From the IMG/VR virus record IMGVR_UViG_3300032288_006024, positions 1 through 21,064 of that record: 21,064 nt of DNA; one strand, written 5' to 3'. This stretch comes from a virus. Of the stretch, positions 2-21,064 are shown in pieces (the first letter of the stretch is position 1; every line of letters begins with the position of its first letter). The notes below the pieces were generated by a model. That model made no database searches, was not told the origin of the DNA, and saw only the letters and a program-made list of their open reading frames with translations. The translations under genes and the position numbers were made by a program.

Positions 2-541
2 TGTAAACCCTGTCTAAATGATCTTGCTAAGATTAGACTTAATAATTTAAGTGATGAAGAAAAGAAAAGAAGAAAAATAATAAAAAATAAAATAAATAGA
101 AAATTCTGGGAGAATAATATAGAAGATCCAGAGTTTAAATTAAAACAGAAAATCAAAAGAAGAGAAAATCACCTAAAAAGAATGGAAGATCCATTGTATA
201 AGTTAAAAGTTTCATTTTCCAGAAGACTAAATAGATTTTTAAAAAGAGGTGTATGTAATAAATCAACTAATAAAGAATATTATTTGGATAAGTTAGGATG
301 TTCATTTGAAGAACTTAAAACTTATTTAGAATCAAAATTTGAAGATTGGATGACGTGGGAAAACTATGGTAAGTATAATGGTGAGTTAAACTATGGTTGG
401 GACTTAGATCATAAAATTCCATTATCATCTGCTACAACCGAAAATGAAATCTATAATCTATCACATTATAGTAATTTACAACCACTCTGTAGCAGGATCA
501 ATAGAGATATTAAAAAGAATAAAATAGAAAACCCACAATAA
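2..541 (+). CDS. HNH homing-type endonuclease, 5' end cut by window
   Basis: The frame is open from base 2 with no start, so the N-terminus lies outside the window. The visible part begins with CKPC, the second half of a Cys zinc site that usually precedes the HNH domain in free-standing phage endonucleases. A long Lys/Arg-rich helical stretch follows, then the HNH core: WDLDHKIPL (His-Asp metal and catalytic motif) and NLQPLCSRINRDIKKNK (the Asn and final metal-ligand helix). Such proteins nick or cut DNA and are mobile within phage genomes. The first ATG at 182 is internal and is not the likely start. Codons are far more AT-rich than in neighbouring genes, which fits recent acquisition. It ends at a strong hairpin shared with the convergent tmRNA gene. 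The family is clear; the target is unknown. Confidence 0.85.
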   Translation, partial: CKPCLNDLAKIRLNNLSDEEKKRRKIIKNKINRKFWENNIEDPEFKLKQKIKRRENHLKRMEDPLYKLKVSFSRRLNRFLKRGVCNKSTNKEYYLDKLGCSFEELKTYLESKFEDWMTWENYGKYNGELNYGWDLDHKIPLSSATTENEIYNLSHYSNLQPLCSRINRDIKKNKIENPQ

Positions 542-560
542 ATATTGTGGGTTTCTTTTT
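529..560. terminator. Bidirectional rho-independent terminator
   Basis: The 12-bp perfect arms AAACCCACAATA (529-540) and TATTGTGGGTTT (543-554) are followed on the plus strand by CTTTTT. On the minus strand a U-rich tract also follows. It lies between the convergent HNH gene and the tmRNA 3' end and overlaps the HNH stop codon. Confidence 0.85.
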
Positions 561-561
561 G

Positions 562-924
562 TGGAGATGATGCCGCACTGCCCGGCATGTACTACTCAGC
601 TAACAATAATCATTCTTTCACAGGCTTAGAAAGTTTTTCTAAACTTACAAAATATCTGGTTTTTTATCCTTAAACGTGCAAAAAGGTTTTCGCATTTGTC
701 CTGCGCGATACAGTCGGAGAATTTTTTTCGATTGGTTCTCTTATTAAACCAATTCCGGAGTTTTAGCTCCGATTGCTTTTAGGGCAGCTACTAAATCTTC
801 ACTGGTTCCTAATTCATTTGTTTTGCCATTTACGACGTTGCCTCTTAATTTATGAATCGGACATTAGACAACCCGATACCTGCATAACTACCGCTACTCT
901 GCTAGGCGATTCTATGACACCCCC
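562..924 (-). ncRNA. ssrA: Transfer-messenger RNA (tmRNA)
   Basis: This 363-nt RNA rescues stalled ribosomes by acting first as an alanyl-tRNA and then as a short mRNA. The 5' end GGGGGTG (924-918) pairs over 7 bp with the 3' CATCTCC (569-563), including G3-U, the alanyl-tRNA synthetase identity pair, followed by discriminator A at 562. Next comes AGAATCGCC, which resembles the conserved tmRNA GGATTCGAC. A long-range helix pairs TGCAGG (884-879) with CCTGTG (624-619). Pseudoknot PK1 has stem 1 ATCGG (877-873)/CCGAT (860-856) and a 7-bp stem 2 GTTGTCT (872-866)/AGGCAAC (843-837). The resume codon GGC (827) follows after 9 nt, with U and A at -5 and -4 as in E. coli. The stem ATTGGTT/AACCAAT (731-753) holds tandem TAATAA stops in its loop. 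Further hairpins at 570-588 and near 628-650 would be the T-arm and the 3' part. Oddities: the T-loop (GGCAGTG) is not the usual TTCRA, and CCA is not fully encoded (ACA). No smpB was seen in the window. Confidence 0.88.
744..827 (-). other. tmRNA tag-peptide reading frame, 27 codons
   Basis: The frame starts at resume codon GGC and runs 27 codons to TAA, directly followed by a second TAA. The encoded tag begins GKTNELG, contains LVAALKA and ends KTPELV. It has no ATG, which is expected because translation resumes from a stalled ribosome. Bacterial tags are usually about 10 residues and end in LAA, the ClpXP signal; this one is long and ends in ELV. An upstream ATG (864) is out of frame by one base and probably irrelevant. 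Confidence 0.75.
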
Positions 925-948
925 AAGTTGCTTTCGTTATTTCTTTAA

Positions 949-982
949 CAAAGATATATATAATATTCTAAATAACAAAAAA
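949..982 (-). promoter_or_regulatory. Bacteroidota-type promoter of the tmRNA gene
   Basis: On the minus strand TTTTTTG (982-976) is followed after exactly 19 nt by TATCTTTG (956-949). This matches the Bacteroidota primary-sigma consensus TTTG, 17-23 nt, TAnnTTTG. Transcription would start near 942, leaving a leader of about 18 nt for RNase P to remove before G1 at 924. A late-motif-like ATTATATATA (964-955) overlaps it, so the gene could be read both early and late. Confidence 0.65.
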
Positions 983-993
983 GTTTGCTTTTT
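978..993 (-). terminator. Weak AT hairpin after the acidic-protein gene
   Basis: AAAAAG/CTTTTT arms with a 4-nt loop and a T-run lie just past the stop of the minus-strand gene at 996. The stem is short and has only one G-C pair, so it is a weak candidate. It overlaps the -33 element of the tmRNA promoter. Confidence 0.35.
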
Positions 994-995
994 AT

Positions 996-1421
996 TTAGA
1001 AAGGCCCGCCGTCTTCGTCGTCGAATTCTTCAGGAGAATAGTAGTCGATGATCAGCAAAGGATCGCCTTTCTTCGTCTCCCAGATGTCGAATTCAGAATC
1101 GTAGTCGGCCATTATGTCGTTTGACAGCCTCTTCAGCGTGGCGAACGTCTTTATGAGGTCGCTGAGCCTTTCGCGCTTGTTCAGGACTATCTCTATCTTT
1201 ATGCTAGATCCGGCGTCTCTTACGCTAACGTTCTTGTTGCCGGCGTCTTTAAGATAGGTCCTGAGAAGATATAGCAGGTGCTCCATGTCTTCGTCTCCCG
1301 ATTCTTCTTCCTCTTCGTATTCTTCTTCGTAGCCGTCTCCGTCATACTCTCCATACTCGTCGAAGTATTCGTCTTCGTATTTGTCTTCTTTAAGATAGCT
1401 GTCGTATTTCTTTAGTTTCAT
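996..1421 (-). CDS. Small acidic protein of unknown function
   Basis: 141 aa. The start chosen is ATG at 1421, one base after the TGA of the upstream peptidase gene; a TTG nine bases further up would overlap that gene. Residues about 10-47 are almost entirely Asp, Glu, Gly and Tyr. A compact, more ordinary domain follows (about 48-130, HLLYLLRTYLKD onward, with an IKIEIVL strand and a helix), then a final acidic tail. No family is recognised. The domain's alternation of helix, strand and helix resembles the last part of the upstream peptidase-like protein (LDLEGSDIETIHDSLVSLSMILKK), hinting at a shared small fold, but this is only a visual impression. The tight spacing suggests translational coupling to the peptidase. 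Confidence 0.7.
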   Translation of the reverse strand: MKLKKYDSYLKEDKYEDEYFDEYGEYDGDGYEEEYEEEEESGDEDMEHLLYLLRTYLKDAGNKNVSVRDAGSSIKIEIVLNKRERLSDLIKTFATLKRLSNDIMADYDSEFDIWETKKGDPLLIIDYYSPEEFDDEDGGPF

Positions 1422-1422
1422 C

Positions 1423-2790
1423 TCATTCAAGTTCTATTTTTAGATATGTCTCGTCGAAGACTGCCTCTTGTTCTATTCCATGCTTTTTGAGTATCATCGA
1501 AAGCGATACGAGCGAGTCGTGTATCGTCTCTATGTCCGATCCTTCAAGGTCAAGGCACATATAGGTCTTGCCTCCGTCTACCGAGATCAGTCTGTCTAAG
1601 GAAACTATGGCGGACTTGACGTCTTCAAGCAGGTCTTTGTATTTGGATTTGGCCTCCAGAGACTTCTTTTTGTAGGAAATCTGCTCTTCCAAAGATCTCT
1701 TCGTAGGGAGAGACCTCCAGTCTATCTTGACGGATGCCTCGCAAAGCTTGGCCAAGAAGGTGATGTTCTGCCTTTCCTTTCCGGTATGTTCGTTGAAATA
1801 TCCTACGGACACGTTTGTGCATTCAGGAATGTCGTCTATGAAAGAAGCAGAATCTGTGTAGATTCCGGTATTGTCAGGCTTCATGTCCATGCCGTTTGCG
1901 TTGTAGGCCGTGCAAAGCGCGTCCGCGAACTCAGGAGAGCAGCAGTCTGTTCCCATCTGAGAAGTTATTATGGAATGGTAGTTTCTCCTGTCGAATGAAA
2001 CGCATCTCTTAACTCCTTTCAGATAGTCTACGCTGTCGTATACGTCAGCCAGCGCATGCGAGCCGATTCCGCCTCTTTCTTCTCCTATGAAGAAATAGTA
2101 TAGGCCTGGAACATTATGCGCCATCATGTAGAGCATGACCGTCGTTCCTGCCTTATCGTCGGCGCCAAGCACCGAGCTTCCGTCCGTGACGATGATCTCG
2201 TCATCTCCTTCTTTCTTGCTCAATAGGCTAGTAGTCATCTGAGTCCTGTCTGCCGTATCCAGATGGCATGTGAACATCGTTTCTGTGTGTCCTCCGACTA
2301 TGGTATAGTAGTTTCCTACGATATCCTTCTGCAGAGTAGGCAGGAACTGAAGAACTTCGTCTTCGTTTCCATGAGGGTAGGTCTTGGTGACGAGCGAAAG
2401 GAATGTCTTCTTCGGATTCTTAGGGCTATATTCGAACTTCTCCGCCTTGATAGGCTTTCCGTCTTCGTGTGGCTTTCCGCTTTTTAGGCTGTTGTAGCTC
2501 TTGGAGAACTTCTCGATCTCGTGTTCGTTTATGGAGTTCTGGAAATAGTATCTTATGAACTTTCCGATCTTCATGTCATGCTTCTTGCCATCTTCCATGG
2601 TCACGCTGAAGTTCCAATTGGCTTTGGAGACATCTGCTTTTTTTATCTTCAGTCCGTTAAAGTATTCCGCGTCTGGCTCTGCCATCCAAAGAAGCTCGAA
2701 AGCGACATAGCTTCCTTGCTTTTCGAGATTTTTCAGAATATCTATAAGCTCTTTGGAAAACTCCACTCTGGGTAATTTTTGTTCTGCCAT
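1423..2790 (-). CDS. M28/M20/M42-like zinc aminopeptidase, phage-encoded
   Basis: 455 aa. The central domain carries a full co-catalytic zinc-peptidase ligand set in the right order: HLD (176-178), GADDKAG (209-215), GEERGG (236-241, the general-base Glu pair), SFD (265-267) and NEHTGKE (333-339). The TDSASF segment (312-317) is also typical of this fold. Such enzymes remove N-terminal residues or cleave short peptides. The first 120 residues are a separate domain ending in a Lys/Glu-rich linker (WNFSVTMEDGKKHDMKIGKF region), and a coiled-coil-like C-terminal part follows residue 365. A late-promoter-like motif sits 18 bases before the ATG. Its place between the NFACT-R gene and an acidic-protein gene suggests late expression. 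The substrate is unknown; it could act on phage structural proteins or on host peptides. Confidence 0.75.
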   Translation of the reverse strand: MAEQKLPRVEFSKELIDILKNLEKQGSYVAFELLWMAEPDAEYFNGLKIKKADVSKANWNFSVTMEDGKKHDMKIGKFIRYYFQNSINEHEIEKFSKSYNSLKSGKPHEDGKPIKAEKFEYSPKNPKKTFLSLVTKTYPHGNEDEVLQFLPTLQKDIVGNYYTIVGGHTETMFTCHLDTADRTQMTTSLLSKKEGDDEIIVTDGSSVLGADDKAGTTVMLYMMAHNVPGLYYFFIGEERGGIGSHALADVYDSVDYLKGVKRCVSFDRRNYHSIITSQMGTDCCSPEFADALCTAYNANGMDMKPDNTGIYTDSASFIDDIPECTNVSVGYFNEHTGKERQNITFLAKLCEASVKIDWRSLPTKRSLEEQISYKKKSLEAKSKYKDLLEDVKSAIVSLDRLISVDGGKTYMCLDLEGSDIETIHDSLVSLSMILKKHGIEQEAVFDETYLKIELE

Positions 2791-2807: not shown

Positions 2808-3206
2808 TTATATATTAATATCGTGTGCATTGACATAGTCGACCTTGACCTGTCCGTCGTTCATGCCGGGATCCTTCTTGACGAACTTCCTCTGGCAATA
2901 GACGACTGTGGCGGATTCGCTGTCTTTGGCACGGCTGTTCTTCTTAGCCAGCTCGGCTGCCTTCTTGATTACTTCTTCCGTAGGAAGATTCTCTCTTACT
3001 CTGATGACCACATGGCTTCCAGGAACGCCTTTTGCGTGCATCCATATATCTTCGTCGTTGGCGACATTGAAGGTTAGATGGTCGTTTGACTTGGCGTCTC
3101 TGCCCATAAAAACAACAAATCCATCTATCTCGGACGTTTTAATATCCGGAAACTTATCCTTTTTGCCTTCATATAGAAAGCTTTTGAATTTTTTCAGATT
3201 TCTCAT
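2808..3206 (-). CDS. Standalone NFACT-R (DUF814) domain protein
   Basis: 132 aa, almost entirely one NFACT-R domain. The signature DIWMHAKGVPGSHVVIR (53-69) is nearly the same as in RqcH/NEMF/Tae2 proteins, where this domain contacts tRNA and the 50S subunit during ribosome-associated quality control. Later conserved parts are also present: the helix KKAAELAKKNSRAK (about 71-84) and the final KFVKKDPGMNDGQVKVDY segment. The NFACT-N and coiled-coil parts of RqcH are absent, so it probably cannot bridge the subunits as RqcH does. The start at 3206 (MRNLKKFK) was chosen because the late motif TTAATATATA ends five bases before it; the longer frame would begin in the upstream terminator. It follows the capsid gene. 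Confidence 0.88.
   Translation of the reverse strand: MRNLKKFKSFLYEGKKDKFPDIKTSEIDGFVVFMGRDAKSNDHLTFNVANDEDIWMHAKGVPGSHVVIRVRENLPTEEVIKKAAELAKKNSRAKDSESATVVYCQRKFVKKDPGMNDGQVKVDYVNAHDINI
2809..2818 (-). promoter_or_regulatory. Late-promoter-like motif TTAATATATA (peptidase gene)
   Basis: Exact TTAATATATA on the minus strand, 18 bases upstream of the ATG at 2790. It overlaps the last codons and stop of the NFACT-R gene. Confidence 0.6.
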
Positions 3207-3211
3207 ATGTC

Positions 3212-5117: not shown

Positions 5118-7214
5118 TTAGATGTTTCTGAATCTCTCCATAATTGCAGTTACGTCACTGTCAGACAGCCTATCTTCTTGGATAAGTGCTTCGTGAGAAA
5201 CAAGCTTTTTAGATACTGATTCATTTTTTTTGAGGTTTCTAGTCGCCCAGAAATGCTCGATTTGACCTTCAGTTTGAAGAACTTCAGCTGGGTATAATCT
5301 AGCTTGTGAAAGGATAGATTTCTTAGCGGATTCATTCAACTGATTCCAGATAGCCTTAGTGTTTTCAGGCATCATTCTGATTACTCTTTCTTCAAGAGTT
5401 TCGTTTTTAGTAGATAGCGCTTCAGAGATCAAAGACAATACTTCTTTTTGAGTGAAGTAGCTGCTTTCGTTTATGTGCAGTTTTACTGTCTCTTGTTCTT
5501 CGTTAGTCAAAGCATAGTAGCTATCAACTTGGGATTTAGATAAGAATTTCAAGAAATTCAAATCAGACGTCTCAGAAACTTTACGTTTTTTAGCTTCTTC
5601 GATCAATTTATCAATAGATTCAGACAATTCAGAATCAGAGTGTCCGTTTACCTCATGGCTATTTGGTCCACATTCTTCTTCTTCTTCTTCATCTTCATTA
5701 TCTTCGTGTGCGTGTGCATGGTCAGGCGCTATTTCAGCGATTCCATTTTCTTCTTCTTCTTCATGTCCGTGAGCTTCCTCTTCTTCCTCTTCTTCAAGAT
5801 TCTCGAAACCTGCAGCGTTCAATGATGGGAATGCTCCTTCTGATTCGTTTAATCTGCCACCATTCAATTTCTCAACGATCAAGCCTTGATAGTTGATAGA
5901 TTTGTCTAGGTTTTCAGCGATATATTCAGAGTAAGCGATGTTGTCATCTAAATGTTCAGCGATGTATTCAGAGTAAGCGATGTTGCCTTCAACGTGCTCA
6001 GCTAAGTATTCAGAGTAAGCAATAGAGTTATCAACGTGCTCAGCGATATACTCACCATAAGCGATAGACTTGTCTAGGTTTTCAGCGATATATTCAGAAT
6101 AGGCGATGTTCTTGTCTAAGTTTTCTGCCAAGTATTCAGAGTAAGCGATGTTCTTGTCTAAGTTTTCAGCAACATATTCTGTGTAAGAAATGTTTTTGTC
6201 AAGATTTTCGGCAACGTACTCAGAGTAAGCGATGTTCTTGTCTAGGTTTTCAGCAACGTACTCAGAGTAAGCGATGTTCTTGTCTAAGTTTTCTGCTAAG
6301 TATTCAGAATAGTTTACAGCTTTTTCAAGATTCTCGGCCAAATAGTCGTTATGCTTGATTAATTTTTCTGTAGTTTCTTTCAAAGACTTGTTTTCGTTTA
6401 CCATGATTTGAACTTTCTCAGCTAAATAGTCTAAATACTTAACCACTTGTGAGTTTGTATTGTTCAATTCATCATAATACTCAAGCAATTGCTCAAGCTT
6501 CTTAGGGCTCATATTGCCTTTAGTGATGGCGTTCTTAACTTCTTTCTTAGTCGACGCCAACTCTTTAACCAAATACTGTGAGTAGTCAGTCAGTTGTTGT
6601 TTAGTAACAAATTCGTTTTTGTTCATGTTAAATAACTCTTCGGTTTTTGACTCGTTGGATAGATCGTATATCCTAAAGTTAGATTGTGGATTTTTGTAAC
6701 CAAGTGACTCATTAAGAACCTTCACGCTCATTTTCGCCGATGCAAAACCTGGGTCAGCAACGATGTCATAAGTGAATAGCTTTTTTAATGATACAGTGCC
6801 ATCAGATTCGGTAATGCCCGCAGCTCTTGATGAAACGAAAATAGGACAGCCATCGTCAACCAACGACTTTGCCTCTTTTCCCCAATAAGTGCTCAATAAT
6901 CTGATTTCACCTTCAACCAAGTTTGATTCTTTTACGTAATTCGCTTTCGTGATCACGTGAGAAGCTCTTGAAAGAGATGTATCGAAGACGTCTGGGTGAT
7001 CGAATTCACCGTAGACAATACCTAGATTGTTCATCCTTTCATTCATCTCCTCTAAAGCAGGAAGGAATTTTGCAGCAGTGTAGATTCTCTCGTTTCGGTT
7101 TTTAACGCCAAATTCAGTGAATGTACCACCCAAAATATAGTCCTTCTTACCAGCGCCTGAACTTTCTCTTACAAGAGAGTTCGTTGAATTTTCTACAATT
7201 AGAACTGGTTTCAT
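5118..7214 (-). CDS. Prohead protease fused to scaffold (gp21-gp22 fusion)
   Basis: 698 aa. Residues about 25-170 match the T4 gp21 prohead protease (U9 family): NRNERIY, GEFDHPD with the catalytic His73, VEGEIRLL, and PIFVSSRAAG with the catalytic Ser at 128/129. From about 200 the protein becomes a long helical scaffold. It has about ten near-perfect copies of a 14-residue unit (YSEYVAENLDKNIA type, 288-448), a Glu/His-rich stretch (472-520) and a C-terminal helical domain. In T4 the protease and scaffold are separate adjacent genes; here they are one frame, as in herpesvirus UL26. An internal ATG at 6626 (MNKNEFVTKQ), preceded by GAGTTATTTAAC, could give scaffold alone. Codons resemble the capsid gene. 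The gene ends 87 bases before the capsid start. Confidence 0.88.
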   Translation of the reverse strand: MKPVLIVENSTNSLVRESSGAGKKDYILGGTFTEFGVKNRNERIYTAAKFLPALEEMNERMNNLGIVYGEFDHPDVFDTSLSRASHVITKANYVKESNLVEGEIRLLSTYWGKEAKSLVDDGCPIFVSSRAAGITESDGTVSLKKLFTYDIVADPGFASAKMSVKVLNESLGYKNPQSNFRIYDLSNESKTEELFNMNKNEFVTKQQLTDYSQYLVKELASTKKEVKNAITKGNMSPKKLEQLLEYYDELNNTNSQVVKYLDYLAEKVQIMVNENKSLKETTEKLIKHNDYLAENLEKAVNYSEYLAENLDKNIAYSEYVAENLDKNIAYSEYVAENLDKNISYTEYVAENLDKNIAYSEYLAENLDKNIAYSEYIAENLDKSIAYGEYIAEHVDNSIAYSEYLAEHVEGNIAYSEYIAEHLDDNIAYSEYIAENLDKSINYQGLIVEKLNGGRLNESEGAFPSLNAAGFENLEEEEEEEAHGHEEEEENGIAEIAPDHAHAHEDNEDEEEEEECGPNSHEVNGHSDSELSESIDKLIEEAKKRKVSETSDLNFLKFLSKSQVDSYYALTNEEQETVKLHINESSYFTQKEVLSLISEALSTKNETLEERVIRMMPENTKAIWNQLNESAKKSILSQARLYPAEVLQTEGQIEHFWATRNLKKNESVSKKLVSHEALIQEDRLSDSDVTAIMERFRNI
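5871..6353 (-). repeat. 42-bp tandem repeats encoding 14-residue scaffold units
   Basis: About twelve units (ten well conserved, one degenerate at each end) encode the pattern YSEYxAENLDKNIA. The unit length of two heptads and regular Tyr, Val/Ile/Leu, Leu and Ile positions point to a long helical rod. Silent differences between units show the array is not brand new. Confidence 0.85.
6626..6628 (-). promoter_or_regulatory. Possible internal start for scaffold-only product
   Basis: The ATG occupies 6626-6624; the coordinates here are nominal. It begins MNKNEFVTKQQL at residue 197, exactly where the protease part ends and the helical scaffold begins, after an A/T-rich stretch like other starts in the window. 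A 502-aa product would result. This is an inference from position only. Confidence 0.35.
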
Positions 7215-7415: not shown

Positions 7416-7808
7416 ATGATACTTACCAGAGAGATTGAAATAAAGATAAACGAGTCTAACTATCAATATTATGAAGACTTGGGCTACGACATTTCGATCG
7501 GAGAGATGATAACCATACCGGTGGAGCTGCTACCGAACGGATCGCACTACAAAGTCAAATGCAAATGCGACGGATGCGGGATAGAAAAAGAAGTCATCTA
7601 CAAAAACTACCTGAAATACGACAACGAAAAATGGGGAGACTACTCCTGCAGGAAATGCTCAGAGGCGAAGAGGAAAGAGACGCTGAGGAAGAATTTCGGA
7701 GTGGACTATCCTATACAGAACAAAAAAGTATTGTCGAAGATGAAGAAAACTCTGATAGAGAAATACGGAGTCGACAATATCTCAAAAAAGAACAAATCAA
7801 ATGAATAG
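7416..7808 (+). CDS. Zinc-finger phage protein, probably truncated endonuclease-like
   Basis: 130 aa. A small zinc site is formed by CKCDGCG (Cys49, 51, 54) and CRKC (78, 81). A Lys-rich part then carries two copies of the repeat seen in many large phage endonuclease-like proteins, NFGVDYPIQNKKV and KYGVDNISKKNK. Those proteins normally continue with more repeats and a nuclease domain. Here the frame stops after the second repeat, and its last eight bases overlap the RNase R start (ATGAATAG). It therefore looks like an N-terminal remnant kept as the first gene of the operon, or a small nucleic-acid-binding partner. Function unknown. Confidence 0.65.
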   Translation: MILTREIEIKINESNYQYYEDLGYDISIGEMITIPVELLPNGSHYKVKCKCDGCGIEKEVIYKNYLKYDNEKWGDYSCRKCSEAKRKETLRKNFGVDYPIQNKKVLSKMKKTLIEKYGVDNISKKNKSNE

Positions 7809-9684
7809 AATCAAAGAAGGAGACACATTCGAAGCTCAAATAGAGTTCTCCACGTCAGGAAACGCCTGCATAAAAGTCGAAGGAAAAGAAATCTTCATAC
7901 ACAAGAAAAAGACAGCCAACTCGCTGCACATGGACACCGCGAGAGTAGAGATATTCAAAGGCCAGAAAAAGATGGAAGGAAAAGTATTGGAAGTCATATC
8001 CAGATTCAAGACGGAATTCGTAGGCACTGCACAGGTCAAAAACGACATGGTGTTCGTAATACCGGACAGCCCGAAGATGTCGGTAGACTTCTTCATAAAG
8101 GGAAAGTCGGATGTAGAAGACGGGCAGAAAGTGCTCGTAGAGATGATAGACTGGGAAATAGGAAGGAAATCCCCAAGAGCCAAGATAGTCAAAATACTCG
8201 GCTTCGTCGGAGAAAACAACGCAGAGATGAATTCCATAATGTACGAATATGGGCTGCCGGTAGACTTCCCGCAAGAAGTCATAAACGAATCGGAGCTGGT
8301 TCCTGAAATGATCACAGAAAAAGAGATAAAATCTAGGAAAGACATGAGGGGAGTGACGACCATAACTATCGATCCAGTAGACGCGAAAGACTTCGACGAC
8401 GCCATATCAATAGATATGAGAGATCCGAACAACGTGCAGGTAGGAGTTCATATAGCGGACGTCGCGCATTATGTCAAAATCGGAACCGAGCTAGACAAAG
8501 AAGCATTCAAAAGGGCCACTTCGGTATATCTGGTAGACAGATGCGTCCCTATGCTCCCAGAAAGGCTATCCAACGGCATATGCTCGCTGAAGCCAAACGT
8601 AGACAGGCTTGCGTTTTCGGTAGTATTCACGCTGGACAAAGACGGGAAGATCAAAGACGAATGGCATGGAAAGACCGTCATACACTCAGACCGGAGATTC
8701 GCGTATGAAGAAGCTCAAGAGATAATAGAAGGATTCGACGGAGACTACTTCAGAGAAATCAGGATGCTGGACTCTCTCGCAAAGAAGATAAGAAAGGCCC
8801 GTATAAAGAACGGATCCATAGAGATGGGCGGAATTGAAGTAAAGTTCAAGCTGGCAGACGACAACAAGAAGCCGATAGGCGTCTATTTCAAAGAGCAGAA
8901 AGACGCGAACAAGCTGATCGAGGAATACATGCTGCTGGCCAACAAATCCGTCGCGAGGCTTTTGGCGAAAGACCAATGGCACAACGTATATAGAGTGCAC
9001 GACAAGCCTAACGAAGAAAAGCTCGCCTCGCTTCAAAGCGTATGCACGAACTTCGGATATACATTAGAACTGGACGAAGAAGGCGATGCGCTGAAAGGAA
9101 ACCTGAACAAGCTCCTGAAGGAGATAAAAGGAACTCCCGAAGAGAACATGATCGAGACTCTGGTTACTAGATCGATGTCGAAGGCAGTCTATACGATAAA
9201 AAACATAGGACACTATGGGTTAGGATTCACTCACTATTCGCACTTCACTTCTCCGATCAGGAGATATCCTGACCTGATAACGCACAGGATACTGTTTGAC
9301 AGGCTCAATAGCGGAAAGCAAGGAAATCCTACGAAAATAGAAGAACAGGCAAAATGGTGCTCGAGCAGAGAGCTAATCGCTGCAAAAGCGCAGAGAGACT
9401 CTATAAAGTACAAGCAAGCAGAATATCTTCAGGACAGAATAGGCCAAGTCTTCGAAGGAATAGTCACAGGCGTGATGGACCGAGGAATATATGCGGAAAT
9501 ATCAGAAAACAAATGTGAAGGATTGATAAGATTGGAGACATTGAACGGAAAATGGTCTGCAGACGCAGACAAATACCTGGCATACAGCGATCTTGGAGAG
9601 CAGATAAGGCTAGGGGATCCGATAAAGGTAATCGTCAAGTCAGTAGACTTGGAGAAAAAGCAGATAAACTTCTTGAGATTCTAA
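7801..9684 (+). CDS. rnr: RNase R (RNB-family 3'-5' exoribonuclease)
   Basis: 627 aa; degrades structured RNA processively from the 3' end. Domain order: cold-shock-like N-terminal domains (about 5-135), the RNB catalytic domain (about 180-505) and a C-terminal S1 domain (about 545-627). The RNB motif ITIDPVDAKDFDDAISID holds the four metal-binding aspartates (191, 197, 199, 200), equivalent to 272, 278, 280 and 281 of E. coli RNase R. GVHIADVAHYV, LPERLSNGICSLKP, EYMLLANKSVA and FTHYSHFTSPIRRYPDL are all intact, so the enzyme should be active. It lacks the extra N-terminal helix-turn-helix and basic C-tail of the 813-aa E. coli enzyme. The start overlaps the upstream stop, and the next gene follows after one base. 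A full RNase R is rare in phages. Confidence 0.93.
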   Translation: MNRIKEGDTFEAQIEFSTSGNACIKVEGKEIFIHKKKTANSLHMDTARVEIFKGQKKMEGKVLEVISRFKTEFVGTAQVKNDMVFVIPDSPKMSVDFFIKGKSDVEDGQKVLVEMIDWEIGRKSPRAKIVKILGFVGENNAEMNSIMYEYGLPVDFPQEVINESELVPEMITEKEIKSRKDMRGVTTITIDPVDAKDFDDAISIDMRDPNNVQVGVHIADVAHYVKIGTELDKEAFKRATSVYLVDRCVPMLPERLSNGICSLKPNVDRLAFSVVFTLDKDGKIKDEWHGKTVIHSDRRFAYEEAQEIIEGFDGDYFREIRMLDSLAKKIRKARIKNGSIEMGGIEVKFKLADDNKKPIGVYFKEQKDANKLIEEYMLLANKSVARLLAKDQWHNVYRVHDKPNEEKLASLQSVCTNFGYTLELDEEGDALKGNLNKLLKEIKGTPEENMIETLVTRSMSKAVYTIKNIGHYGLGFTHYSHFTSPIRRYPDLITHRILFDRLNSGKQGNPTKIEEQAKWCSSRELIAAKAQRDSIKYKQAEYLQDRIGQVFEGIVTGVMDRGIYAEISENKCEGLIRLETLNGKWSADADKYLAYSDLGEQIRLGDPIKVIVKSVDLEKKQINFLRF

Positions 9685-14038: not shown

Positions 14039-15112
14039 ATGCAAAAATTAGAGTATATTTGGCTGGATGGCGCAAAACCGCAGCAGATCCGAACAAAGAC
14101 GAAGATAGTAAATCTCAAGCACGTCGAAGGAGAAACAAGCATTTTAGAATCATATAGAAACGGAAAGAGGAAAGCCCCGATATGGAACTTCGACGGATCT
14201 TCCACATATCAAGCAGAGACTTCGAAGTCAGAGCTTATTTTGGTTCCAAAAAACTACTTCATGAATCCATTCGCGTCGAATTCCATCTTGGTGCTTTGCG
14301 AGGTATACAACACGGACGGAACGCCTCATTCAACCAACACCAGGGCAAATATGATAGAATCTCTGGAAAGATACGACGACGAGACGATGTATGGATGGGA
14401 GCAAGAATATTTCATCTTCGACAACAAGACGAATAAGCCATTAGGGTGGCCAGCAGAAGGCGAGCCGAGAGCGCAAGGCGAATACTACTGCGCAGTAGGA
14501 GCAAACAACGTCGCGGGAAGGGATTTCGTAGAAGCACATGCCGACCTCTGCATCAAGGCTGGAATCTCCATCTCCGGAACGAACGCGGAAGTGGCGCTCG
14601 GACAATGGGAATATCAAGTAGGCACCGTCACCGCAGAAGAAGGAGCTGACCAGCTCTGGATATCGAGATACATACTGCACAGGCTGAGCGAAGAGTTTGG
14701 ATACAGGATAGAGCTAGACCCTAAGCCTTTCAAAGGAAACGACTGGAACGGATCCGGAATGCACGTCAACTTCTCTACTAAGACAATCAGAGAAGACAAG
14801 GCGAACAAGAAGGAAATCGCGATAGAAATGTGCAAGAAGCTCGAAAAGACTCATGCCGAACACATAGCTGTATACGGAGAAAACAACGAGGCTAGGCTGA
14901 CAGGGGCCAACGAGACGTCATCCATCAAAGACTTTGGATGGGGAATCGGAGACAGGACAAAGTCCATCAGGATTCCTTCTACGATAAACGATCCTCACGC
15001 GATCGGGTATATCGAGGACAGGAGGCCAGCATCGAACGGCGATCCTTATCTGATCGTAGACAGGATGGTAAGGACAATACTTCAAGACGAAGAGGTATTC
15101 GAAGAAAGATAA
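14039..15112 (+). CDS. glnII: Glutamine synthetase, class II (GSII)
   Basis: 357 aa, full length for the eukaryote-type class. It makes glutamine from glutamate, ammonia and ATP. All the class signatures are intact: the beta-grasp motif NFDGSSTYQA (50-59), GWEQEYFIF with metal ligands Glu121 and Glu123, QGEYYCAVGANNVAGRD (146-162), NAEVALGQWEYQVG with Glu184 and Glu191, DPKPFKGNDWNGSGMHVNFSTK with His242, the Arg306 region IGDRTKSIRIP, and YIEDRRPASNGDPYL with Glu326. It should be active. No late motif precedes it; an AT-rich TTAATAAATAATAAA stretch does. It is followed by a strong terminator. In a phage this is an auxiliary metabolic gene, probably feeding purine, CTP and amino-sugar synthesis. 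Its origin is probably a Bacteroidota host. Confidence 0.95.
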   Translation: MQKLEYIWLDGAKPQQIRTKTKIVNLKHVEGETSILESYRNGKRKAPIWNFDGSSTYQAETSKSELILVPKNYFMNPFASNSILVLCEVYNTDGTPHSTNTRANMIESLERYDDETMYGWEQEYFIFDNKTNKPLGWPAEGEPRAQGEYYCAVGANNVAGRDFVEAHADLCIKAGISISGTNAEVALGQWEYQVGTVTAEEGADQLWISRYILHRLSEEFGYRIELDPKPFKGNDWNGSGMHVNFSTKTIREDKANKKEIAIEMCKKLEKTHAEHIAVYGENNEARLTGANETSSIKDFGWGIGDRTKSIRIPSTINDPHAIGYIEDRRPASNGDPYLIVDRMVRTILQDEEVFEER

Positions 15113-20748: not shown

Positions 20749-20758
20749 TATATATTAA
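20749..20758 (-). promoter_or_regulatory. Late-promoter-like motif TTAATATATA (distal)
   Basis: Exact TTAATATATA on the minus strand, 29 bases before the ATG at 20719 and just past the terminator of the upstream gene. Confidence 0.6.
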
Positions 20759-20761
20759 ATA

Positions 20762-20788
20762 AAAAACCCATCATTCTGATGGGTTTTT
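20762..20788 (-). terminator. Terminator of the right-edge gene
   Basis: Perfect 12-bp stem AAAAACCCATCA/TGATGGGTTTTT with a TTC loop and a T-run on the minus strand. Confidence 0.9.
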
Positions 20789-20806
20789 AAAATTCCAATA
20801 TTTTTA

Positions 20807-21064
20807 TTAAGCCGGAAGTTCTTCTTCGCCCTCTTCTTTCTCTTCTTGTCCTTCTTCCTCTTCTTGTCCCTGACCTTGTCCTTGAGCTTGTCCTTGAGCT
20901 TGTCCTTGAGCTTGTCCTTGAGCTTGTCCTTGAGCTTGTCCTTGAGCTTGAGCTTGTCCTTGAGCTTGAGCTTGTCCTTGAGCTTGAGCTTGTCCTTGAG
21001 CTTGTGGCTCTTCAAATTCTCCCTCTTGTGCCTGACCTTGTCCTTGTGCCTGACCTTGTCCTTG
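20807..21064 (-). CDS. C-terminal part of a protein with a QAQG-repeat tail
   Basis: 85 visible codons in the frame that stays open to the window edge; the start is beyond it. The tail is built of Gln-Ala-Gln-Gly units, interrupted by EGEFEEP, and ends in a Glu/Gln-rich stretch closing with EELPA. This frame was preferred to the Lys/Leu/Asp-rich one because it runs open off the edge, ends just before a strong terminator, and has the same Ala/Gly/Gln/Glu character as the portal tail. The folded part of the protein is not in view, so its identity is unknown; a structural protein is a guess. Confidence 0.65.
   Translation of the reverse strand, partial: QGQGQAQGQGQAQEGEFEEPQAQGQAQAQGQAQAQGQAQAQGQAQGQAQGQAQGQAQGQAQGQGQGQEEEEGQEEKEEGEEELPA
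20876..21005. repeat. Short tandem repeats encoding Gln-Ala-Gln-Gly
   Basis: A 12-base unit (TTGTCCTTGAGC on plus) and an 18-base variant with an extra TTGAGC repeat about nine times in a row. Near-perfect identity suggests recent slippage and length variation between relatives. Confidence 0.85.

Follow-up and report, generated by a model that had tools for sequence, protein, structure and literature searches.

A predicted tmRNA with a long conserved tag and an apparently rebuilt tRNA-like elbow in a divergent lineage of huge phages

The window analyzed here, a stretch of 21,064 nucleotides from a viral record, raises the question of whether a locus at which the common search tools report no tmRNA can still encode one and thereby form part of a phage-borne trans-translation system. 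An initial annotation had proposed a phage tmRNA with a long tag, an odd T-loop and a tag end unlike ALAA. The strand had been left unnamed; the element reads on the minus strand, from G1 at 924 to A73-C at 562-561. The covariance-model search and the ARAGORN run suggested as checks gave no match in the window, and an empty covariance search had been named in the annotation as grounds for rejection. Two homologues from related loci, L076 and L080, passed both. In the window, ARAGORN found no tmRNA and Rfam none at the gathering threshold, and a permissive Rfam scan of positions 450-1000 with E ≤ 10 did not yield one either. The low-scoring Rfam matches in the window are mostly leader and sRNA models that fall on the terminator hairpin. 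The single-sequence folding energy of the element is not unusual (z -1.1). On one sequence alone the case for a tmRNA would be weak, and it is the comparative evidence that is decisive. Judged from this comparison, the negative outcome in the window is a matter of detection failure and not of an absent tmRNA; it reflects divergence, since RF00023 does match those sequences of the alignment that have diverged less. We estimate at roughly 87% the probability that the locus represents a working trans-translation system with a one-piece ssrA RNA of a divergent lineage, located in a huge phage with Bacteroidota-type signals, and consider it very likely that the element itself is a functional tmRNA. 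The RNA comprises the following parts:

561-924, minus strand: tmRNA gene (ssrA), identified through homologues, covariation and the RF00023 matches in L076 and L080
918-924, minus strand: 5' strand of the acceptor stem, GGGGGUG, with its third base in the G·U alanine identity pair
912-913, minus strand: A18-G19 of the D-loop (G18-G19 in canonical tmRNA)
837-877, minus strand: pseudoknot PK1 with stem 1 AUCGG/CCGAU and stem 2 GUUGUCU/AGGCAAC
747-827, minus strand: tag reading frame of 27 codons, GKTNELGTSEDLVAALKAIGAKTPELV, with the resume codon GGC at 827-825
741-746, minus strand: tandem stop codons TAA TAA in a hairpin loop
691-713, minus strand: small pseudoknot PK2, CUG/CAG with crossing CGC/GCG
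570-588, minus strand: T-arm of 19 nt, AUGCCG/CGGCAU (6 bp) with the 7-nt loop GGCAGUG
563-569, minus strand: 3' strand of the acceptor stem, CAUCUCC, followed by A73 at 562

Via the neighboring peptidase gene, 80 related viral contigs were gathered. The tmRNA element is present in 73 of these loci, and in six of the seven contigs without it the contig end lies no more than about 1.5 kb from that gene. A search with a tag pattern matched 62 viral contigs, and a similar pattern gave no match in about 85,000 cellular genomes; this negative pattern search is the only basis for the proposed divergence of the tag from host copies. Plasmids searched for the RNA or the tag returned nothing relevant. 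The RNA also matches the published huge-phage genomes LR745206 (634,780 bp) and LR756502 (642,428 bp). In the study that describes these phages, genomes above 634 kb have been placed in the 'Mahaphage' clade, for which replication in Bacteroidetes was predicted (PMC7162821), and the relatives of the window phage are 'Mahaphage' huge phages.

The loci together yielded 60 distinct full-length sequences, on which the counts out of 60 given below are based. The most canonical of these, L076 and L080 (the latter with G18G19 and the T-loop UUCGAGU), score 57.4 and 50.4 bits, respectively, against RF00023 (gathering cut 47) and are also called by ARAGORN. ARAGORN reported no tmRNA in 53 of 54 distinct homologue regions tested. 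As L076 and L080 share the peptidase-side locus and the tag body with the remaining sequences, the latter are tmRNAs by homology. The negative single-sequence searches could be read as a sign that a structured untranslated RNA or a small protein gene resembles a tmRNA by chance, a reading that is refuted by these syntenic homologues above the RF00023 gathering score and by the conservation of tmRNA-specific elements, and to which we assign a negligible probability. The window RNA is not of the permuted two-piece form (RF04321), in which the 3' tRNA half precedes the tag half and an intervening segment separates them; its order is linear, from 5' acceptor strand via tag and T-arm to 3' acceptor strand.

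RNAalifold, applied to 36 sequences and given no tmRNA prior, recovered the acceptor stem, the long P2 helix, stem 1 of PK1 and the T-arm. Over 52 tested pairs, pseudoknots included, 93.4% of cells are paired, a percentage that favors the proposed structure because the latter was partly derived from the same alignment; pairing falls to 36-45% when the partners are slid by 1-3 columns. The stronger measure is provided by two-sided, compensatory changes, which occur in 34 of the 52 pairs, a number reached in none of 500 shuffles. They are found in the acceptor stem (2/7 pairs), P2 (14/21), both stems of PK1 (2/5 and 5/7), both stems of PK2 (2/3 and 3/3) and the T-stem (6/6), and in the crossing stem of PK2 all three pairs are affected as CGC/GCG becomes CAC/GUG in relatives. 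The acceptor stem of seven base pairs with G3·U70 and the PK1 with crossing stems of 5 and 7 bp, as initially described, are indeed present in the window; all 60 sequences have G·U as their third acceptor pair. The annotation had named PK1 and acceptor pairs without compensating changes as grounds for rejection, which is contradicted by the two-sided changes in the acceptor stem and in each of the two PK1 stems. A degenerating, non-functional relic of a host-derived tmRNA might also lie below the detection limits of ARAGORN and Rfam and show a changed elbow. Such a relic is highly improbable in the light of helices that are kept by compensatory changes, of positions 18 and 55 that change together (see below) and of a frame, a promoter and a terminator that are retained across divergent phages.

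With regard to the mRNA-like part, both features that had been noted in the window are present: the resume codon, GGC, lies 9 nt past PK1 and is preceded by U at position -5 and A at position -4, and two consecutive stops are placed in the loop of a hairpin. A stop ends the frame in all homologues. The tag frame is open in 60 of 60 sequences, while stops occur in both other frames in every one of them. The tag of 27 codons that had been read from the window recurs with 27 to 30 codons across the sequences (27 codons, n = 12; 28, n = 1; 29, n = 42; 30, n = 5), and the changes in length are in-frame. A pN/pS value of 0.60 is mildly below 1 and third positions are the most variable, with RNA pairing constraints blurring this signal. 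There are 43 distinct tags; 58 of 60 begin with G and all contain DLV or DIV. The conserved body reads G-x-x-N-E-V-G-T-x-E-D-L-V-A-A-L, and its middle (EDLVAALQNN) is the most conserved segment, conservation of the body exceeding that of the C-terminus. A tblastn comparison of the tag with phages gave matches limited to two known huge-phage tmRNAs, so that no other phage protein of the collection searched is a likely source of the tag. The last residue is V in 36 and A in 24 sequences, with endings such as LV, VA and TV; none of the lineage's tags ends with AA.

Comparison with more distant relatives and with tags from other sources puts these endings into perspective. The cousin LR756504, the RNA of which scores 65 bits against RF00023, has a tag of 24 codons, DNVNSFEQSILNELFAPVEMAVAA, ending with AVAA, while the tag of the cousin LR756501, GDYKMNAEDMMSIPTSLTGKVATESFVEDLVLA, comprises 33 codons and ends with LVLA, and that of LR756500 reads GNNAEMRMAA. 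The tmRNA of LR756501 has an apparently canonical acceptor and T-loop and is interrupted by a group I intron. In this 735-kb genome the gene lies at about 718.2-718.8 kb (positions 660-1270, minus strand, of L100), and the intron is located in the T-loop (RF00028, 96 bits); the exons, joined by eye, yield the acceptor GGGCUCG/CGGGUCC and a canonical T-loop. Intron-containing tmRNAs are a known type (PMC11915505). The usual tags end with LAA, the variants LVA and AAV serve as ClpXP-directed tags, with AAV acting more slowly, and Mollicute tags end with NYAFA and are read mainly by Lon (PMC9382460); furthermore, some tmRNAs have no tag (PMC11915505). Given the Mollicute tags and the tag-less tmRNAs, an LAA-type ending is common but not a strict requirement for a tmRNA.

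The departure of the T-loop from TTCRA that had been pointed out for the window was confirmed and, like the long tag and its end unlike ALAA, holds for the lineage as a whole, for which the typical loop is GGCAGUN, with more canonical members such as L080 as exceptions. Most sequences have a T-arm of 19 nt, and 16-17 nt are found in a more canonical group. The arm can alternatively be read as 5 bp with a 9-nt loop, the canonical form being 5 bp with UUCRANY, and formation of the sixth T-stem pair is uncertain, as it varies little and is absent from four sequences. If it forms, the stack of acceptor and T-stem amounts to 7 + 6 = 13 bp instead of 12, a situation comparable to that in selenocysteine tRNA. 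Positions 18 and 55 are A18 and G55 in 49 of 60 sequences and G18 and U55 in five, while six carry U18; the combinations A18-U55 and G18-G55 were never seen among the 60 sequences, and G19 and C56 are kept. In a tree built without the columns in question, the G18/U55 pair L106/L128 falls inside a starred, otherwise A18/G55 clade that includes the window. Two to four independent coupled switches can be placed on this tree and no uncoupled change from A/G to G/U; the switches are too few for the coupling to reach statistical significance. On the basis of the alignment, the tRNA-like elbow appears rebuilt, with a T-arm longer by 2 nt and A18-G55 in place of G18-U55. The non-canonical T-loop and position 18 could weaken the binding of EF-Tu, AlaRS or SmpB.

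An altered elbow could also point to an inhibitor or decoy, i.e., an RNA that sequesters SmpB or ribosomes and blocks trans-translation of the host, and a tmRNA derivative of mycobacteriophage DS6A, which has been proposed as a tmRNA inhibitor, provides a precedent (PMC4131195). The DS6A RNA consists of the tRNA-like domain only, without an mRNA-like part (PMC4131195), whereas the RNA described here is complete and conserved. A decoy would have no need of the resume site, PK1, tag frame and stops that are conserved and covary over 60 sequences, and the large genomes of the lineage encode SmpB of their own. With its mRNA-like part conserved, the RNA is very unlikely to be a decoy.

The functional tmRNA that we favor is accompanied by its own gene signals and by a recurrent set of neighboring genes:

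949-979, minus strand: promoter of Bacteroidota type, TTTG-N19-TATCTTTG, ending 24 nt upstream of the tmRNA
528-553, minus strand: intrinsic terminator, a hairpin with a T-rich run after it
996-1430, minus strand: small acidic open reading frame between peptidase and tmRNA, no PHROG or Pfam match
1423-2790, minus strand: peptidase (phrog_4191; its M28 and peptidase T-like matches are weak), upstream of the tmRNA
2808-3209, minus strand: stand-alone NFACT-R domain protein (PF05670, E = 5e-17)
7801-9684, plus strand: RNase R with RNB, cold shock and S1 domains (TIGR02063, 636 bits, above cut-off)

The full promoter pattern, which resembles that of Bacteroidota, precedes 33 of 59 homologues and occurs in about 0.1% of shuffles, and TAnnTTTG is found upstream of 43 of 59. 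A hairpin with a T run follows 55 of 59. The encoded 3' end is ACAA in 35 of 60 sequences and the full ACCA is present in just five, so that CCA has to be added in most cases. In 70 loci the tmRNA follows the peptidase gene in the same orientation. Near the tmRNA, between the capsid and peptidase genes, NFACT-R (the RNA-binding domain of RqcH/NEMF) is encoded in 77 of 80 loci and possibly constitutes a second ribosome quality-control function; no match was found in LR756504 and LR756501. RNase R is encoded in 57 of 80 loci.

Genes that follow the tmRNA vary between relatives. In the window an endonuclease VII-like protein (phrog_1035) is encoded at 2-541 on the plus strand, while L064, L055 and L029 have an open reading frame downstream of the tmRNA with the apparent start M-I-T-K-F-D-G-R-Y-G-F-L, which in our view resembles NADAR/YbiA proteins. 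The window furthermore contains genes for a phage glutamine synthetase (14039-15112, plus strand; PF00120, PF03951) and for a prohead protease (5118-7214, minus strand), the C-terminal half of which contains acidic stretches and, repeated in tandem over a long segment, the unit YSEYxAENLDKNIA. A low-complexity repeat of the type KDKLKLKDKL on the minus strand occupies 20755-21064, where the assembly probably stopped.

The window record of 21 kb contains neither SmpB nor ClpP, and their presence in the window phage itself is proposed by analogy with its relatives. SmpB is encoded in all four large records, i.e., LR745206, LR756502, G001 and G002, with all matches above cut-off, and SmpB from LR756502 shows a C-terminal tail of the type GKKLWDKRETIKKR when set against solved SmpB structures. 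In these four records no other tmRNA was detected, RF00023 matches staying below 30 bits, and the loci of the best of these matches hold tRNA genes. Two to three copies of ClpP each are encoded in LR745206, LR756502 and G001, and none was found in the 385 kb of G002 searched. All four also encode an AAA protein of ClpC type that carries a GVGF loop, with a UVR motif in both of the two scanned. The GVGF loop may be a ClpP-docking loop, as it resembles the IGF/LGF loops known from ClpX and ClpC. LR756501 yielded no ClpP match, and its corresponding AAA protein is devoid of the GVGF loop. A shortened ClpP-like gene is situated about 2-3 kb from smpB in LR756502 (364599-368013) and in G001 (79293-81875). 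RNase R is above cut-off in three large records; two RNase R matches in relatives run across in-frame stops. Lon was considered as a phage protease and none was found in six records. A search for EF-Tu gave a single match per genome in four published genomes; the frames concerned are 665-726 aa long, as would be expected of EF-G.

From the fold, frame, promoter, terminator and synteny apparent in the alignment and from the SmpB, ClpC, ClpP and RNase R genes seen in relatives, we infer a course of events that includes aminoacylation, ribosome rescue with the phage SmpB and tag-directed proteolysis. The RNA would be made from its own promoter, trimmed, provided with CCA and charged with alanine via G3·U70. 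Together with phage SmpB it would enter ribosomes stalled on broken messages and become the message itself at the GGC codon past PK1, whereby a tag of 27-30 residues would be appended; the in-frame stop would then end tagging and free the ribosome. The broken mRNA would probably be removed by RNase R, and the tag would most likely act as a degradation signal for phage ClpC/ClpP or, less efficiently, for host Clp proteases. We give even odds to the proposal that the main role of the tag is that of a degron read by the Clp protease of the phage itself.

The tag had initially been described as lacking a degradation signal. The absence of an LAA or AA end stands, while a loss of the signal goes too far: V or A is the last residue in 60 of 60 sequences, the long tag of the cousin LR756504 ends with AVAA, LVA- and AAV-type ends are still ClpXP-directed (PMC9382460), and most large genomes of the lineage encode ClpP as well as a ClpC-type unfoldase with a ClpP-docking-like loop. 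The same observations speak against rescue without disposal, i.e., a functional tmRNA the tag of which is no degron, so that tagged products are stable or gain a localization or binding function. That no tag of the lineage ends with AA, that the middle and not the C-terminus is most conserved, and that no ClpP was matched in the 735-kb cousin, which encodes SmpB and a long tag, render this alternative possible, yet we regard it as unlikely. The use of another protease, also raised at the outset, could be accounted for by the phage's own ClpCP. A more far-reaching version of the preferred degron reading, in which tmRNA and SmpB have co-evolved around a rebuilt elbow (acceptor/T stack of 13 bp, contact between A18 and G55) and the tag is recognized only by phage ClpC-ClpP, is doubtful at present; if true, ribosome rescue and the clearance of the phage's broken products could proceed without the ssrA/ClpXP system of the host or compete with it.

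In comparison with established systems, the RNA resembles one-piece tmRNA (RF00023) in the order of acceptor, D-loop, P2, PK1, tag, further pseudoknot and T-arm, in G3·U70, in U-5 and A-4 before the resume codon, in the hairpin stop and in the SmpB gene of relatives. It differs from RF00023 in that most members tested fall below the gathering cut, the T-arm has 19 nt instead of 17 with the T-loop GGCAGUN, A18/G55 replaces G18/U55 and the tag ends with V or A and never with AA. The most frequent length of tmRNA tags is 10 aa (PMC11915505), as opposed to 27-30 aa here. The occurrence of tmRNA and SmpB in huge phages was already reported in 2020, with tmRNAs assigned by ARAGORN (PMC7162821). Phage group and general capacity are the same as in that work by Al-Shayeb et al. 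(2020), while lineage, tag and elbow are absent from its main text (PMC7162821). Other phage tmRNAs stem from Bacillus phage G, mycobacteriophages Bxz1, Catera and Wildcat and methylophage Melnitz (PMC4131195, PMC9004378); these phages have other hosts, and the Melnitz form is of the permuted two-piece type. The literature searched, which included few subscription journals and excluded the tmRNA website, holds no account of the lineage, the long conserved tag or the elbow. Accordingly, tmRNA and SmpB in huge phages are known, and what is new is a divergent lineage with a long tag and, as predicted from the alignment, a rebuilt elbow.

A tmRNA database from 2025 lists 97,179 sequences, 79 of them from phages, and was compiled mainly with ARAGORN and BLASTN, RefSeq viruses having been screened (PMC11915505). 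As ARAGORN and the Rfam model in its current form largely miss a lineage of 60 distinct sequences, the extent of trans-translation among viruses has probably been underestimated, and the alignment obtained here suffices to build a better covariance model. The lineage constitutes a natural experiment on the tolerance of the tRNA elbow and on the requirements placed on a tmRNA tag. It brings together tmRNA, SmpB, RNase R, an NFACT-R protein and a Clp protease within a single group of viruses, so that the reasons for which phages encode ribosome rescue can be put to the test.
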